Positions 26,629 to 37,580 of a stretch of 37,580 bases of DNA are shown here, in pieces. A model generated the notes under the pieces. The model ran no database searches. It saw nothing but the letters and a program-made list of their open reading frames with translations, and was not told the DNA's origin. Every line of letters begins with the position of its first letter. Positions within the stretch are counted from its first letter, which is position 1. The position numbers were made by a program, and so were the translations under genes. The DNA is from Chloroflexota bacterium (lineage in GTDB: Bacteria; Chloroflexota; Limnocylindria; Limnocylindrales; CSP1-4): contig PLLE01000013.1 of assembly GCA_003141245.1 (NCBI GenBank), positions 20,955 to 58,534 on the forward strand, given 5' to 3'.

Positions 26629-28623
26629 CTACGCCCCTCGCCGGTAAGGCGTGTCCAGCACCACGAAGTCCTTGCGACCGACCAGCGCCGCCCGGATGCG
26701 GTGGACATTCTGGTTGTACAGCAGGCGGTCCCACCAATGGCGGGGCAGGTGCTCGGGCAGCAGCACGATCGTGAGGCGGTCCGGGTCCTCGGTCTGCGAG
26801 ACCTCCAGGTAGCGTACGAATGGCCGGACGAGCGCCCGATAGGGCGACTCCACCAGCACGACCCGAACGCCCGGGAGCTGCCGTTCGACGCGCTCGCGGA
26901 AGCGCTCGCCCTCGGACGGATCCAGCGCTACGTGGACCAGCTGCACCTCCTCGCCCATCGTCTCGCCGACCTTGACCGCTTGGACCACGGCCCGACTCAT
27001 TGCCTGGGCGGAAACCACCACGCGCTGGCGGCGATGGGGCGGCCCGAAGACGACGTCCGGCGCGACATCCAGACCGCGGCCCTCCAGGTCGTACTCGTGC
27101 TTGATGAACAGCATCAGGGCGATGAGGATCGGGACCACGATGATGATCACCCACACGCCCTGGTCGAACTTCGAGATGGCGATGACCACGACCACCACGG
27201 CCGTCACGACCGCGCCGATCCCATTGATGACGGCGCTTCGCCTCCAGCCCGGCCCGCGCCCGGAGAACCAGTGGCGGACCATGCCCGACTGCGAGAGCGT
27301 GAACGAGGTGAAGACACCGATCGCGTACAGGCCGATGAGGCGGTCGGGCGAGCCGTTGAAGGCGACGACCAGGAAGATCGAGACGAGCGCTAGGGCTACG
27401 ATCCCGGAGTTGAAGGCGAGCCGCTCGCCTCGCAGAGCGAACTGGCGCGGGAAGTAACCGTCACGGGCCAGAATGGAGGAGAGGCGCGGGAAGTCGGCGA
27501 AGCTCGTCTGGGCCGCGAGGATCAGGATGCCCATCGTGGAGATCTGGAGGATGTAGTACATCGGCCCACGGCCGTAGAAAACCGTTCGCCCCACCTGCGA
27601 AAGAACGCTTTCGCCCGTGGCCTGGAACCCCGCGGGATGGGCCCCGATGTTGACGGCGAGGTAGCTCGTGCCAAGGAACATGATCCCGAGCAGGGTGGCC
27701 ATGATGATCATCGTCTGCTGAGCGTTCTTCCATTCGACCGGCTTGAACGCAGGAACGCCGTTGGCCACGGCCTCGGTGCCGGTCATAGCCGAGCAGCCGT
27801 CCGCGAAGGCCTTGCAGAGCAGGAACAGGCCCATGCTCTCGGTAGCGACGCCGGTCAAGGGTGCGACGTCGGCGACCTGGGAAAGCTGGCCGGTCAGCGA
27901 CCTGAAGACGCCGACGGCGATGAGCAGCAGCATCGAGCCGATGAAGATGTAGGTGGGGCTGGCGAACAGAGTGCCGCTCTCCCGCAACCCGCGCAGGTTC
28001 ACGACCATAACCAGCAGGATCGAGAGGGCGATGAGCGGAACCTTCACCGGCTCAAGCGCCGGAAAGGCCGAGTAGAGAGCCTGAACGCCCGCCGACACGC
28101 TCACCGCGACGGTCAGGACGTAGTCGGTCAAGAGCGATGCGGCGGCGGTGAGGCCGGCCAGAACGCCGAGATTGGCGTGGGCCACGATGTAGCTGCCGCC
28201 GCCGTTGGGATATGCGCGGATCGTCTGGCGGTAGCTGAAGGTCACGATGACCAGCAGAGCGACGACGATGACGGACAACCCCAGGACGTACTTGAACGTG
28301 TCCGGCCCCGCGCCCACGAGGATGAGCATCATGGCCCCGGTCGCGTAGGCCACTGAGGACATCACGTCCGACGAGAAGACCGGCAGAGCCTTCCATTTGG
28401 GCAGGCGTTCGGTCAGCTCTGCGGCCGACGACAGTGGACGGCCGAAGAGGAGTCCTCGGATGGTGGCCATTCGGCGCTGCTGGGCCGTCCGCGGAGCCTG
28501 CGCCTCGAGCTTCGCTTCCAGGACGCCAGGGCCCAAGTACCGGAAATAGCGGGCATGCGGCCGATCGACGACCACGCGACGATCGCCCAACTTCCGGCCG
28601 TGCAGTTGTGGCTGCTCAGCCAT
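26629..28623 (-). CDS. kimA: KimA-type high-affinity K+ importer (KUP superfamily)
   Basis: A 664-residue membrane transporter closely resembling Bacillus subtilis KimA (YdaO), a K+/H+ symporter. The match runs from the first helix through the C-terminal cytosolic domain. Residues corresponding to the K+ site of KimA are kept: Asp86 and Tyr93 in SSDVMSSVAYAT, and Asp167 in LLTDYVLTVAVS. The YPNGGGSYIVA and NLRGLRES segments are also shared. Residues 530-664 form the soluble USP-like domain (VVVSAQAMSRAVVQAVK, LLPEHLPRHWWDRLLYNQN). A 50-residue N-terminal extension with many Arg is extra. It overlaps the upstream small gene by eight bases and is divergent from a kdpDE-like pair. Confidence 0.92.
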   Translation of the reverse strand: MAEQPQLHGRKLGDRRVVVDRPHARYFRYLGPGVLEAKLEAQAPRTAQQRRMATIRGLLFGRPLSSAAELTERLPKWKALPVFSSDVMSSVAYATGAMMLILVGAGPDTFKYVLGLSVIVVALLVIVTFSYRQTIRAYPNGGGSYIVAHANLGVLAGLTAAASLLTDYVLTVAVSVSAGVQALYSAFPALEPVKVPLIALSILLVMVVNLRGLRESGTLFASPTYIFIGSMLLLIAVGVFRSLTGQLSQVADVAPLTGVATESMGLFLLCKAFADGCSAMTGTEAVANGVPAFKPVEWKNAQQTMIIMATLLGIMFLGTSYLAVNIGAHPAGFQATGESVLSQVGRTVFYGRGPMYYILQISTMGILILAAQTSFADFPRLSSILARDGYFPRQFALRGERLAFNSGIVALALVSIFLVVAFNGSPDRLIGLYAIGVFTSFTLSQSGMVRHWFSGRGPGWRRSAVINGIGAVVTAVVVVVIAISKFDQGVWVIIIVVPILIALMLFIKHEYDLEGRGLDVAPDVVFGPPHRRQRVVVSAQAMSRAVVQAVKVGETMGEEVQLVHVALDPSEGERFRERVERQLPGVRVVLVESPYRALVRPFVRYLEVSQTEDPDRLTIVLLPEHLPRHWWDRLLYNQNVHRIRAALVGRKDFVVLDTPYRRGA

Positions 28624-29044
28624 CGGTGGCGGTTTCCCTCTCGATGACGATGTCGACCCTGCCGCCCGGATGGACGACGGTGGGCAGGATCAGGATATCG
28701 GTTGATTCGACGGTCTGGTAGGCCTTCCAGAGCAGGCCCGGCCAGGAGCGAAAGCCGGACAGGACGACGCGAGTCGCCAGGCCTGCCTCGACGAGGGCGA
28801 CGGCGGCCTCGATATCGGCGAAGCCCGGCTCCAGGAACGATTCACTGCCCGCCTCCAAACCTGACGCCTCGTCAGCCAGCGCGGCCAGTTGCTCGCGGAG
28901 TGGCGCGACCGCCGTCGGTCGATTGGGGAGTGGCTCCACGTCGAGACGGTGCTCGATCACGGAGGCCCTCGGATCGCGCCCCGAGTCGATCCGGGCCCCA
29001 GCCCGAACCAGATGCAGCAGGCTGTCGGCGAATGTCACGCCCAT
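28616..29044 (-). CDS. Unknown small protein coupled to kimA
   Basis: A 142-residue soluble protein I do not recognise. Its stop overlaps the kimA start (ATGGCTGA), which implies coupled translation. Residues 75-98, FADIEAAVALVEAGLATRVV plus LSGF, read as an amphipathic helix followed by a beta strand, and the end (DILILPTVVHPGGRVDIVI) looks like further strands. This C-terminal region resembles the 89-residue product at 36000-36269, which precedes the kdp operon: the pattern (D/E)(I/V)ExA(V/I)ALVxxGxAxR(V/I)xLxGxR is shared. No membrane segment is present. A regulatory or accessory role in K+ uptake is proposed from context alone. Confidence 0.7.
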   Translation of the reverse strand: MGVTFADSLLHLVRAGARIDSGRDPRASVIEHRLDVEPLPNRPTAVAPLREQLAALADEASGLEAGSESFLEPGFADIEAAVALVEAGLATRVVLSGFRSWPGLLWKAYQTVESTDILILPTVVHPGGRVDIVIERETATDG

Positions 29045-29093
29045 ACGCTACGCAGCAGGCCACGAGGAAACGGGCTGGGCGGCGCCGGGTGGC

Positions 29094-29124
29094 GCTCAAC
29101 AACTGCTCAACAGGGTGGGCTCAA
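29094..29124. promoter_or_regulatory. Three GCTCAA repeats in the kimA/kdpDE divergent region
   Basis: GCTCAA occurs at 29094-29099, 29105-29110 and 29119-29124 (TTGAGC on the minus strand), spaced 11 and 14 bases apart in the 119-base gap between the kimA-linked gene and the sensor kinase. Clustered direct repeats in a divergent promoter region may be response-regulator sites; KdpE is an obvious candidate, but no match to a known KdpE site is claimed. Confidence 0.35.
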
Positions 29125-29163: not shown

Positions 29164-30798
29164 GTGGCAATCACGCGAGCTCGGACTCGGCTGCCCGGAG
29201 TGGCACGTACGGCGCAGATGGCGGCGACGATTCTGGGCGCCTTGATCGCGGCCTCCGTGGCAATCGCGCTGCTGGCACCACTCGGCGTCACCCACGCCGC
29301 CCCGGTCTACCTGCTGGCGGTCGTCGCCGTCGGAATGCGTTGCGGCACCATCCCGGCCGTGGTCACGTCCGTGGCCGCGTTCCTCGCCTACGACTTCCTA
29401 TTCGTCCAGCCGCTCTACACCTTCACCATCAGCAGCCCCGAGGAATGGCTGAACCTGCTGCTCCTCCTGGCCGTGGCCGTCGCCATCGGCCGGCTCGTGG
29501 CCCTCCAGGCCGAGCACGCCGAGGAAGTGGCCCAGCGGGCGCGCGAGGCCCAGGCCCTCTTCGGCATCAGTCGGGCTCTGGCCGAAACCCGGACCGTCGA
29601 GGAAGCGGCGCCGATGGTGCTCGAACGCCTCGCGGCCGCCACGGCCATGGACCGCATCTGGTTCGGGCTGGGGGCGACGCCGGCCGAGGAAAGGGCGATC
29701 ACCGACACGGCTCCCGGCCAGCCACTCCCCGTCCCGGCCTGGCAGGTCGTGCTGCAGCATTCGCCGGGCGACGAGCCAGCCCGCTGGGTCCGTGTGCACG
29801 TGGCCGCAGCAATGGTCCGTCGAAAGGCGGACCGCGCCACCGTCCACCGCGTCCGCGTCGAGGCGTCGGGCGAGACGATCGGATCCGTTTGGGCGCTGAG
29901 GGCACGCGAGGAGCGTGAACCTGACCGTGCGGAGACGCGCATCCTTTCGGCAGCGGCAGATCAGCTCGGCCAGGCGATCGTCCGCGACCGCGCGGACCTG
30001 GAGCGGACCAACGCCGAGATCGCCCGCCGCAGCGAGGCCCTCAAGACGGCCCTGCTCGACTCCGTCTCGCATGACCTGCGCACCCCGCTGGCCACGATCC
30101 GAGCGGCGGCGGGCAGCATGCTCGACGAGTCGGTGGCCTGGACGGCACAGGACCAACGCGAAGCCTTCCAGGCGATCGATTCCGAGGCCGAGCGAATGGG
30201 CCGGCTCATCCGCAACCTGCTCGACCTCAGTCGGATCGAAGGCGGAGCCCTCAAGCCGGAGCTCGAGCCAACCGATCTCGACGATCTGGTGCCCCAGGTG
30301 GCCAGACGCGCCTGCGCCGCCACGACCAAGCACGTGCTGGTGGAGCTGCCCGACTCGCTGCCGCCGGTCCTGGCGGATCAGTTGTACCTGAGCCAGGTTC
30401 TGGCCAACCTGCTCGAGAACGCCATTCGCCACGGCGGCGAGACGATCCGAGTGCGCGCCTCAGATCGGCCGGACGGGCTGGTCGAGATCAGCGTCGAGGA
30501 CGACGGACCGGGCGTGCCCAAGGCCGCCCTGCCGCACCTGTTCGAGAAGTTCTACCAGGCCGGGCCCCCAGGCGAGGGCAAGCGGCGCGGCATGGGCATC
30601 GGAATGACCGTCGTCGAGGGCCTCACGCGGGCGATGGGTGGCGAGGTCTCGGCGAGCCGCAGCGAGCTCGGCGGCCTGCGTGTCGATGTGCGACTACGAT
30701 CGGCGCCCATCCCGGAGGACTCGGCCACGGGCGAAGACGCGAAGCCGACGGCGATGGGCATCTCCGCCATGCCGGGTGGAACCGGAGCCGAGCCGTGA
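29164..30798 (+). CDS. KdpD-like sensor histidine kinase lacking the N-terminal KdpD/USP domains
   Basis: A 544-residue membrane kinase. Residues 18-112 are the four-helix DUF4118 region of KdpD (VYLLAVVAVGMRCGTIPAVV, AYDFLFVQPLYTFTISSPEEW). Residues 125-275 are GAF-like, then HisKA with phospho-acceptor His303 (SVSHDLRTPLATIRA), the N-box NLLENAIRHG (415-424), and the G-boxes DDGPGVP (446-452) and GMGIGM (476-481). The 210-residue KdpD sensor and USP domains of classical KdpD are absent. The start is uncertain: GTG 29164 is used, with GTG 29200 and ATG 29218 possible. The stop overlaps the response-regulator GTG. Probably senses K+ or turgor and phosphorylates its partner. Confidence 0.87.
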   Translation: MAITRARTRLPGVARTAQMAATILGALIAASVAIALLAPLGVTHAAPVYLLAVVAVGMRCGTIPAVVTSVAAFLAYDFLFVQPLYTFTISSPEEWLNLLLLLAVAVAIGRLVALQAEHAEEVAQRAREAQALFGISRALAETRTVEEAAPMVLERLAAATAMDRIWFGLGATPAEERAITDTAPGQPLPVPAWQVVLQHSPGDEPARWVRVHVAAAMVRRKADRATVHRVRVEASGETIGSVWALRAREEREPDRAETRILSAAADQLGQAIVRDRADLERTNAEIARRSEALKTALLDSVSHDLRTPLATIRAAAGSMLDESVAWTAQDQREAFQAIDSEAERMGRLIRNLLDLSRIEGGALKPELEPTDLDDLVPQVARRACAATTKHVLVELPDSLPPVLADQLYLSQVLANLLENAIRHGGETIRVRASDRPDGLVEISVEDDGPGVPKAALPHLFEKFYQAGPPGEGKRRGMGIGMTVVEGLTRAMGGEVSASRSELGGLRVDVRLRSAPIPEDSATGEDAKPTAMGISAMPGGTGAEP

Positions 30799-31535
30799 GC
30801 GGTCCGACGCTCCTGATCGTCGAAGATGAAGAGCCCGCCCGGCACGCCCTGGCCGAGTACCTGCAGCGCCGCGGCTACGAGGTCTACCAGGCGGCGAGCG
30901 CCCATGAGGCCATGCGCCAGTGGGACGCTCACCGCGCCGATCTGGTCCTGCTCGACCTGGGCCTGCCCGACCTCGATGGCGTCGACGTCATCCGGCGAAT
31001 CCGCCGCGAGGCCACCACGCCGATCGTCATCCTGTCCGCCCGTGGCGACGAGCGCGACAAGATCGCCGGCCTGGAGGCCGGCGCGGACGACTACCTGACG
31101 AAGCCGTTCGCCACGGACGAGCTCAACGCCCGAATCCGGGCCGTCCTCCGGCGGGCCGGCGGTCCCGACGCCGACGCCAAGGGTTGCCTGCGGCTCGGCC
31201 CGATCGAGCTCGATGCCGTCAGACGTGAGGTCCACGTCTCAGGCGAGCTGGTTAGCCTCACGCCCCGCGAGTACGAACTGCTCAAGGTCATGCTGTCGAG
31301 CCAGGGCCGCGTCCTGACCAAGGCTCGGCTGCTGCGCGCGGTCTGGGGCCTGGCCTACGCCGACGAAAGCGCGTACCTCCACGTCTACGTGAATCGGCTC
31401 CGCCGCAAGCTCTCGGCCGCGGCACCCGCCACCTCGCTGGAGGGCCTGATCGAGACGGAGCCCGGCATCGGCTATCGCGTCGCCGACCACGAGTCGGTGC
31501 GCCAATTGCCCTCACGCACCGTGGCGCCGCGCTGA
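30795..31535 (+). CDS. kdpE: KdpE-like OmpR-family response regulator
   Basis: A 246-residue regulator with a receiver domain (residues 5-120; acidic pair Asp11/Glu12, phospho-acceptor Asp54 in LLDLGLP, conserved Lys103 in TKPF) and an OmpR-type winged helix (about 140-235; LTPREYELLKVMLSSQGRVL, YLHVYVNRLRRKL, ETEPGIGYRV). The GTG start overlaps the kinase stop (GTGA at 30795-30798), so the two are translationally coupled. The symbol rests on pairing with the KdpD-like kinase and the kdp operon about 5 kb downstream. Likely targets are the kdp and kimA promoters (inference). Confidence 0.9.
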   Translation: MSGPTLLIVEDEEPARHALAEYLQRRGYEVYQAASAHEAMRQWDAHRADLVLLDLGLPDLDGVDVIRRIRREATTPIVILSARGDERDKIAGLEAGADDYLTKPFATDELNARIRAVLRRAGGPDADAKGCLRLGPIELDAVRREVHVSGELVSLTPREYELLKVMLSSQGRVLTKARLLRAVWGLAYADESAYLHVYVNRLRRKLSAAAPATSLEGLIETEPGIGYRVADHESVRQLPSRTVAPR

Positions 31536-35799: not shown

Positions 35800-35999
35800 A
35801 ATGTAGCCTTCTGCGCGGTCCACCGCGCCCGCGACCGGCGAGGCGATGGACGGGAACCCCGGCTTCTCTGGCCCACTGTGCGGAAGTCGCGGTCCAGTTC
35901 CGGCCGGCCGCCTCGGACCCCACTCGTTTAGGCCGTGTTTAGCGATCCACCCTTCTCGGACCGCCGCCGCCTCTTGGAGGGCGTGGCAATCCTGGGGGC
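35800..35999. other. Upstream region of the kdp-linked operon
   Basis: No gene is seen here. A seven-base hairpin, GCGCGGT-CC-ACCGCGC (35813-35828), lies just beyond the nested element. The promoter of the operon beginning at 36000 should be here, but I cannot point to convincing -35 and -10 hexamers. GGAGGG near 35975 is too far from the ATG to be its ribosome site. Confidence 0.4.
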
Positions 36000-36269
36000 A
36001 TGGAACGCGAAGCAGCACGCAGGACCGCGACTCCCGACCCGGAGGAGACCCGTCGTCGGCTGACCTCGGAGGTCGCCGAGGTCGAGACCGCCATCGCGCT
36101 CGTGGCGTCGGGCGCCGCCTCACGGATCACCCTCACCGGCCTGAGATTCGGGGAGCAGCTGGCGCGGCGCTTCCGCGGCGAGGCCCGCCTCAGGGGCCTC
36201 CGCCTCGACCCGCTCCCCTGGCCCGAAGACGCGGGTTGCGACCTGATAGTGCGGAGGATCGATGAGTAG
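36000..36269 (+). CDS. Unknown small protein at the head of the kdp operon
   Basis: An 89-residue soluble protein, not recognised. Residues 27-47 (VETAIALVASGAASRITLTG plus L) align with residues 77-97 of the protein coupled to kimA (28616-29044), with further scattered similarity to the C-terminus (DLIV versus DIVI). The stop overlaps the receiver-domain gene by eight bases (ATGAGTAG). The ribosome site is weak. The predicted fold is a charged N-terminal helix, a second helix, then short strands. Its presence beside a second K+ system supports a role in potassium uptake control, but function is unknown. Confidence 0.72.
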   Translation: MEREAARRTATPDPEETRRRLTSEVAEVETAIALVASGAASRITLTGLRFGEQLARRFRGEARLRGLRLDPLPWPEDAGCDLIVRRIDE

Positions 36270-36687
36270 CGGAGTGGTCCGAGCCCGAGTCCTCCTGATC
36301 GAGGACGACCTGCCGCTGGCGACGATCATCTCGAAGCATCTGAAGGCTCGAGGCCACGACGCGCGAGTCGCGGCCTCGGCCGAGGAGGCCACCCGGATCG
36401 TCCGCGCTGGCTACCGGCCGACGATCGTGCTCCTGGACATCAACCTGCCGGGCGAGTCTGGCTGGAGTTTCCTGCGTTCCGGCGCCCTGGACGCGGCCGG
36501 GGCGCCGCCGGTCTTCGTGGTCAGCGCCACCGCCGTCCCGCCCTCGAAGCTCCGTGAATTCGGCTGCGCTGGCTACCTGCCCAAGCCGTTCGCCGTGACA
36601 ACGCTCATCGAAATCGTGGAACGCCACCACAGTGAGGCGGACGGCGCCGAAGCCTCCGCCACCCAGGGAGGGCTCGATGCTTTCTGA
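36262..36687 (+). CDS. Stand-alone receiver-domain response regulator
   Basis: A 141-residue CheY-like protein: acidic pocket IEDD (13-16), phospho-acceptor Asp59 in VLLDINLPG, Thr/Ser in VVSAT (86-90), and Lys108 in PKPF. No output domain follows; the C-terminal 20 residues are polar and low in complexity. GGAGG at 36253-36257 supports ATG 36262. It lies inside a chain of overlapping genes leading into kdpFA, so it may receive phosphate from the KdpD-like kinase and act by protein contact (inference). Confidence 0.9.
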   Translation: MSSGVVRARVLLIEDDLPLATIISKHLKARGHDARVAASAEEATRIVRAGYRPTIVLLDINLPGESGWSFLRSGALDAAGAPPVFVVSATAVPPSKLREFGCAGYLPKPFAVTTLIEIVERHHSEADGAEASATQGGLDAF

Positions 36688-36855: not shown

Positions 36856-37580
36856 ATGATCCCCTCGCCTCTTGGCCTGCTCCAGGCCTTCAGCCTCTTC
36901 GCCGTCGCCATCCTTCTGGCGCGGCCCCTCGGCGGCTACATGCGCAAGGTCATGGAAGGCGAGCGAGTCTTCCTGTCGCCGATCCTCCGGCCCGTGGAGC
37001 GCGGCGTCTACAAGGTCCTCCGCGTCGACGAGAAGGTCGAGCAGCGCTGGACCGCCTACGCGGTCTCGGTGATCGTCTTCTCGTTCGTCTGCATCCTGGC
37101 CCTGTACCTGCAGCAACGCCTGCAGGCGTCGCTGCCTCTGAGCCAGAGCGGCGTCACGGTCGGGCCCGTCGCGCCGGATCTCGCCTACAACACTTCCGTC
37201 AGCTTCGATACGAACACGAACTGGCAGAACTACTCCGGCGAGTCGACGATGACTTACCTGACCCAGATGGCCGGGCTCGCCGTCCGCAACTTCGTCTCGG
37301 CCGCTACCGGCATCGCCGTGGCGCTCGCCCTGACCCGCGGCCTGGTTCGCAGGTCGGCGACGACGATCGGCAACTTCTGGGTCGACCTGACCCGGAGCAC
37401 CCTCTACATCCTGCTGCCGATCGCATTCGTCGGCGCGCTGGTCCTCGTCTCCCAGGGCGTGATCCAGACCTTCGCCAGCTCGATCACCGTCCACACGCTG
37501 GCCGGCGGCACGCAGCTGATCCCGCTCGGTCCGGTCGCCTCCCAGGAGGCCATCAAGGAGCTGGGCACCAACGGCGGCGG
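36856..37580 (+). CDS. kdpA: KdpA, K+-translocating subunit, 5' part
   Basis: The first 241 residues of the channel-like subunit of the KdpFABC potassium pump; the gene continues beyond the window. The first selectivity-filter region is visible as YNTSVSFDTNTNWQNYSG (residues 111-128), followed by TYLTQMAGLAVRNFVSAATG. The second filter begins at the window edge (LGTNGG). The N-terminal segment PLGGYMRKVMEGERVF is also typical. GGAG at 36843-36846 serves the ATG directly after the kdpF stop. kdpB and kdpC should follow. Confidence 0.96.
   Translation, partial: MIPSPLGLLQAFSLFAVAILLARPLGGYMRKVMEGERVFLSPILRPVERGVYKVLRVDEKVEQRWTAYAVSVIVFSFVCILALYLQQRLQASLPLSQSGVTVGPVAPDLAYNTSVSFDTNTNWQNYSGESTMTYLTQMAGLAVRNFVSAATGIAVALALTRGLVRRSATTIGNFWVDLTRSTLYILLPIAFVGALVLVSQGVIQTFASSITVHTLAGGTQLIPLGPVASQEAIKELGTNGG

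Follow-up and report, generated by a model that had tools for sequence, protein, structure and literature searches.

P1 and P2, two small proteins encoded ahead of kimA and of the kdp genes in a Chloroflexota genome, are homologous as judged from their sequences and constitute one small-protein family, within which we regard them as paralogous members of an undescribed alpha/beta type. The members are under purifying selection, lie almost exclusively in K+ loci and share a KdpE-like repeat upstream of their genes. We describe the locus as K+ uptake under KdpDE control, with an accessory family not described before; the small protein probably assists the cell in responding to a shortage of potassium. 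The whole explanation that we propose, with a probability of about 0.4, is that KdpE-switched operons would be headed by paralogous small feedback adaptors.

The window, i.e. the whole stretch of 37,580 nucleotides that was analysed, is part of a contig from a 2.54-Mb draft genome. The features considered are, in order of position:

26629 to 28623, minus strand: kimA, KUP/APC-type K+ transporter of 664 residues, whose start overlaps the P1 stop
28616 to 29038, minus strand: P1, kimA-linked family protein, 140 residues from the GTG at 29038
29045 to 29050, minus strand: TAGCGT, resembling a -10 element, with its end 6 nt upstream of the GTG start (leaderless-looking)
29060 to 29066, minus strand: CTCGTGG, conserved element of the P1 promoter
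29094 to 29110, minus strand: TTGAGC-AGTTG-TTGAGC, KdpE-like tandem repeat upstream of P1, arranged like the KdpE sites of E. coli
29164 to 30798, plus strand: divergent KdpD-like histidine kinase (DUF4118, HisKA, HATPase) without the KdpD N-terminal domain
30795 to 31535, plus strand: KdpE-type response regulator (receiver and Trans_reg_C, from domain matches)
35927 to 35943, plus strand: TTTAGG-CCGTG-TTTAGC, KdpE-like tandem repeat upstream of P2
35971 to 35977, plus strand: CTCTTGG, conserved element of the P2 promoter
35988 to 35993, plus strand: AATCCT, -10-like element immediately upstream of the ATG, with A at -11 and T at -7
36000 to 36269, plus strand: P2, kdp-linked family protein, 89 residues, predicted alpha-beta-alpha-beta-beta fold
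36262 to 36687, plus strand: lone receiver-domain response regulator without output domain (Response_reg, 1.4e-12)
36856 to 37578, plus strand: kdpA, first part, the gene running to the window end

Both small ORFs are as given in the preliminary description, and each overlaps the next gene of its potassium locus by 8 nt: P1 overlaps kimA at ATGGCTGA (28616-28623) and P2 overlaps the receiver gene at ATGAGTAG (36262-36269). The P1 start was corrected from the ATG at 29044 to the GTG at 29038, which better agrees with the promoter geometry and with the starts of the orthologues. The name KimA, which we take from an earlier reading of the sequence and from knowledge of the family, has no dedicated model behind it; the product matches Pfam AA_permease_2 at 9.6e-24 and K_trans weakly. 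A second kimA-like gene of the genome, at G000:C7:25719-27695, is 51% identical and has no strict KdpE-like repeat. The genes of the DUF4118 kinase, for which a GTG start at 29164 is proposed, and of the KdpE-type regulator run divergently from P1. Outside the window, kdpA is followed by kdpB, kdpC and a short KdpD comprising KdpD and Usp domains and no kinase (L065:7238-8401, with a Walker A motif GMAPGVGKT). The short form of KdpD in Deinococcus is a c-di-AMP-controlled serine kinase inhibiting KdpB (PMC11018627). A c-di-AMP cyclase (diadenylate cyclase) is present in this genome and was found in 19 out of 19 genomes searched in the genus, and no c-di-AMP or other Rfam riboswitch was detected in the window at the gathering threshold.

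The preliminary description had proposed a core common to P1 and P2 and an identity of about a quarter. In local alignment 12 of the 24 core residues are identical, and the overall identity of 21% is in line with that estimate. Searching the genomes of 151 relatives, P1 recovered P2 orthologues and vice versa with weak E-values. The profile test connected the two proteins: the profiles built from P1 and P2 orthologues were aligned by hhalign over 75 columns with a probability of 95.9% and an E-value of 5.4e-9, and the P2 profile matched all 20 P1 relatives tested, with E-values from 3e-4 to 6e-10 (Z=5000). As negative controls, the profiles of six neighbouring proteins were compared with the family and yielded hhalign probabilities of 0.1-1.5%. 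A derivation of the family from Usp, KdpD, receiver, kinase, KdpE or KimA domains was rejected on the same figures, profile similarity being absent. The genes are protein-coding and under purifying selection, as median dN/dS values show (P2, 0.25; core of P1, 0.16). P1 and P2 have strongly diverged and P1-type proteins bear an extra N-terminal segment, the P1 layout being a conserved N-terminal amphipathic segment, a variable linker and an alpha-beta-alpha-beta-beta domain. Amphipathic-looking starts, MTFADSVLHLVRAGARID and MKVWLGPLGSLLRPSRRG (28985-29038, minus strand), occur in P1-type and other long kimA-linked members and are followed by the variable linker.

The family has no Pfam or NCBIfam match above the curated cut-off, and a PDB sequence search with the family proteins returned nothing significant. 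KdpF is a single membrane helix of about 30 residues encoded before kdpA. The family resembles it as a small protein encoded before kdpA, whereas its members have 89-142 residues and are predicted to be soluble alpha/beta proteins; Pfam gave no match above cut-off for P1, P2 or 19 family members.

Profile searches detected the family in 66 of the 177 genomes of the class, nearly all of them belonging to one taxonomic family. In a phylum sample of 400 genomes, only two marginal matches fell outside the class (L156 and L157), both within long unrelated ORFs, and these distant Chloroflexota matches were dropped as due to chance. We defined a K+ locus as a position beside KimA, the receiver-KdpA operon or a KdpD-like kinase/KdpE pair. 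Genome-wide, 88 of 91 family matches were found in K+ loci, the number of separate genes being slightly below 91 because a few entries of the context table are partial alignments of the same gene; the concern that homologues might mostly lie outside potassium loci is thereby answered. Of the 3 others, two are long ORFs matched by chance and the third is a fragment of 52 residues. This fragment (L154:5078-5233, minus strand) covers the domain's second half, with no K+ gene in view.

The commonest gene orders are KdpE-family-KimA (24) and KdpE-family-receiver (19), followed by uncharacterised gene-family-receiver (14) and divergent kinase-family-KimA (10). In three genomes (L125, L128 and L129) the family gene follows KdpE with no transporter beside it. 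Whenever it adjoins kimA it lies on the same strand, mostly directly upstream, and overlap with kimA is seen in the window's genus; 35 of the 87 kimA genes compared are accompanied by a family gene. In the family tree, kimA-linked and kdp-linked members are clustered, with at least 3 context changes between kimA and kdp on well-supported branches, the details being unsure because of the few columns and long branches. A named genome collection, scanned with close P2 orthologues only, contained 14 loci with the family, 13 of which are labelled Chloroflexi, many from fen samples. A short contig (L170) labelled Isosphaeraceae (Planctomycetota) shows the order kinase-KdpE-P2-receiver-kdpA, which we ascribe to misbinning or transfer. 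In L119 and L148 the order is kimA-family-receiver-short KdpD, the short KdpD-like protein being about 42% identical; its position beside kimA could indicate serine-kinase control of KimA. Among the metagenome-assembled genomes L158, L161, L163 and L164, several have split or frameshifted kdpB matches, which may reflect assembly errors or real decay.

One architecture was found upstream of both member types, consisting of a tandem repeat (TTGAGC-N5-TTGAGC or TTTAGG-N5-TTTAGC), 26-27 bp, the element CTC(T/G)TGG and the start codon, with 28 or 29 nt between the first base of CTC(T/G)TGG and the start codon. The exact 6+5+6 repeat is present in 68 of 73 family promoters, in which T occupies half-site position 2 in 100% and position 1 in 92% and 83% of cases. 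In E. coli, KdpE binds the direct repeats TTTATA and TTTACA, each of 6 bp, which are separated by 5 bp and begin with two invariant T's (PMC3264566). The 6+5+6 geometry and the leading TT are thus alike, whereas the half-sites found here, TTGAGC/TTTAGC, are richer in GC. An A at -11 and a T at -7 from the start codon are 98% conserved and would be the -10 base positions if transcription starts at the start codon; the mark of leaderless bacterial genes is TANNNT about 12 bp before the start (PMC3160421). The element CTC(T/G)TGG, nearly invariant at about -29 to -23, lies within the expected -35/-10 spacer and is too near the -10 for a normal -35; a site for a second activator or an unusual sigma contact are its candidate roles. 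Single copies of it are enriched in the window (27 versus 14.6 expected).

In the 2.54-Mb genome the strict repeat GTTKAGN5GTTKAGC has exactly two occurrences, one upstream of P1 and the other upstream of P2, against none for the reversed control, which strengthens the link to two K+ systems drawn in the preliminary description. Window shuffles gave 0 matches to a near-identical repeat pattern. Within the genus, 33 strict matches were counted across 21 genomes, and one genome has none. The composite promoter pattern was matched 75 times, in 57 of 177 genomes and always within K+ loci (reversed control: 7). Among these, 65 directly precede a profile-detected family gene, 1 precedes an N-interrupted P1 copy whose N-terminus was recovered (G013), 2 lead to divergent members missed by the profile (113 residues in G059, 72 in G153), and 7 lie directly at a kimA start with the small protein absent, one of them at a KimA-like N-terminus at a contig edge. 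The pattern was built from the family promoters and its presence there is therefore partly circular; this does not apply to its near-absence elsewhere, to the two new members or to the kimA-only cases. Those seven kimA-only cases tie the promoter to the K+ response rather than to the small gene as such. Members located downstream of kimA (G021, G057, G062 and G090) have no such promoter, as expected for second genes. Judging from their geometry and K+-locus specificity, the repeats are probably a KdpE-type operator, and P1 and P2 would be the first products of a KdpE-type regulon.

We propose the following course of events, whose first steps draw on established knowledge of such systems. Low K+ would be sensed by the kinase, and the KdpE-type regulator encoded beside P1, the presumed binder of both repeats, would switch on two operons when K+ is scarce, P1-kimA and P2-receiver-kdpABC-short kdpD. 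The transcript would begin at the start codon, and P1 and P2 would be made first, in step with KimA or with the receiver. As soluble, trans-acting feedback adaptors of K+-starvation signalling, they may act on the kinase, KdpE or the lone receiver and match signalling to the amount of importer, so that induction would end once the uptake machinery accumulates.

An action on the signalling side is favoured by the three genomes with KdpE and a family gene but no transporter, by the coupling to the receiver in kdp operons and by the two unrelated importers. The repeated switching of context between kimA and kdp points to a common signalling target. Against an adaptor role, many KdpE-kimA operons do without the small protein, some using the promoter directly, which indicates that it is dispensable there. 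In addition, the P1/P2 divergence and the extra N-terminal segment of P1-type proteins fit transporter-specific roles as well, and most kimA operons have no accompanying lone receiver. On the same sequence data, a signalling adaptor and direct control of the transporter would both be acceptable.

GlnK is a small soluble protein encoded directly before the nutrient transporter AmtB and subject to two-component control. Similarly, the family protein, made together with the adjacent importer, might directly regulate it by binding the cytosolic part of KimA or of KdpFABC and gating it on K+ return. This is the main alternative, which we consider real, if on the whole unlikely. Its constant strand and mostly upstream position next to kimA, with overlap in the window's genus, would suit such a role, as would the tether-like conserved amphipathic segment and linker of the P1 type and the fact that the P1 and P2 subfamilies are mostly split by transporter. 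However, the gene coupled to it in kdp operons encodes a receiver and not a transporter subunit, three loci have no adjacent transporter, many kimA operons have no small protein, and one family would have to suit two unrelated transporters. The likeness to GlnK-AmtB lies in a small soluble protein before a transporter and in two-component control, whereas the family here has no PII match. We are rather doubtful of the extended analogy in which one soluble family, induced by KdpE, would control proton-coupled KimA and ATP-driven KdpFABC as GlnK does AmtB, with transport or the sensor as its target once K+ is back.

It seems improbable that the family protein is the partner of the lone receiver, which when phosphorylated would bind or release it, the kimA-linked copies having lost or replaced their receiver. 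The receiver gene, whose product matches the Response_reg model, is directly next in nearly all kdp-type loci, with the 8-nt overlap in the window, and also occurs in kimA-family-receiver loci, but about half of the loci, those of the kimA type, have no such receiver nearby.

Structure prediction bears on a further alternative. The AlphaFold2 model of P2, obtained from an 18-row alignment (mean pLDDT 84, pTM 0.66), comprises a helix (14-36), a strand (42-48), a helix (51-64) and two strands (67-74 and 79-86). The predicted-structure comparison gave the same domain for P1, preceded by a short helix at the N-terminus and by a linker predicted with low quality. In the order of its elements P2 is like the N-terminal domain of ribosomal protein S8, several top Foldseek matches being of this kind (TM 0.43-0.46), which would suit a nucleic-acid-binding protein, acting for instance on its own mRNA, with a fold akin to S8, IF3-C, R3H or SpoVS-type domains. 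This reading is nonetheless very improbable, since Foldseek found nothing significant for either protein (none below E 0.1 for P2) and the matches of P1 differ from those of P2. A relation to SpoVS/Alba, suggested by the element order, was rejected because the profile score of 10.4 was no better than the shuffled-column mean of 10.1. Finally, we hardly believe that the similarity is convergent, or that the small ORFs are translated leaders setting downstream expression with an inert peptide, as their small size, operon-first place, overlap of stop and start codons in the window's genus, apparently leaderless start and absence from some kimA operons that have this promoter might suggest, given the purifying selection on the protein, the fairly confident fold prediction and the profile-level homology across genera.

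Returning to the feedback adaptor, its setting can be compared with known systems. Compared with E. coli kdpFABC control, the same site also precedes the kimA operon, the small protein comes first and KdpE binding is predicted. Split KdpD systems, known from Deinococcus, Anabaena and Alicyclobacillus, combine a short KdpD (ASK and Usp) with a separate kinase (PMC11018627). Here too a short KdpD follows kdpC and a DUF4118 kinase is separate and paired with KdpE, whereas the kinase-KdpE pair and the repeat are also found by kimA, and the small family and the lone receiver are added. The transporters are the same as those under c-di-AMP control, KimA and KdpD being its targets (PMC10284832, PMC8214093), and the genus has a diadenylate cyclase; however, the window contains no riboswitch and the family is unlike its Usp-bearing neighbours. 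As for the K+- or nucleotide-responsive role suggested in the preliminary description, the former holds at the level of predicted expression only; the latter was not borne out, the window having no c-di-AMP riboswitch and the family no detectable relation to known nucleotide-binding domains, although a cyclase is present in the genome.

Repeats of KdpE geometry, a split kinase and a short KdpD are already known kinds (PMC3264566, PMC11018627). A search of open-access papers yielded neither the small family nor its operon-first place in two K+ operons, nor the composite promoter. What is known of K+ uptake control comes mainly from E. coli (KdpDE) and Firmicutes (c-di-AMP). Here one KdpE-like switch would govern both a KUP-type importer and the Kdp pump, the two operons beginning with related genes, and a phylum with little molecular genetics thereby gains a candidate K+-specific regulatory protein, together with a promoter signature precise enough to predict members of the regulon and family members missed by profiles.
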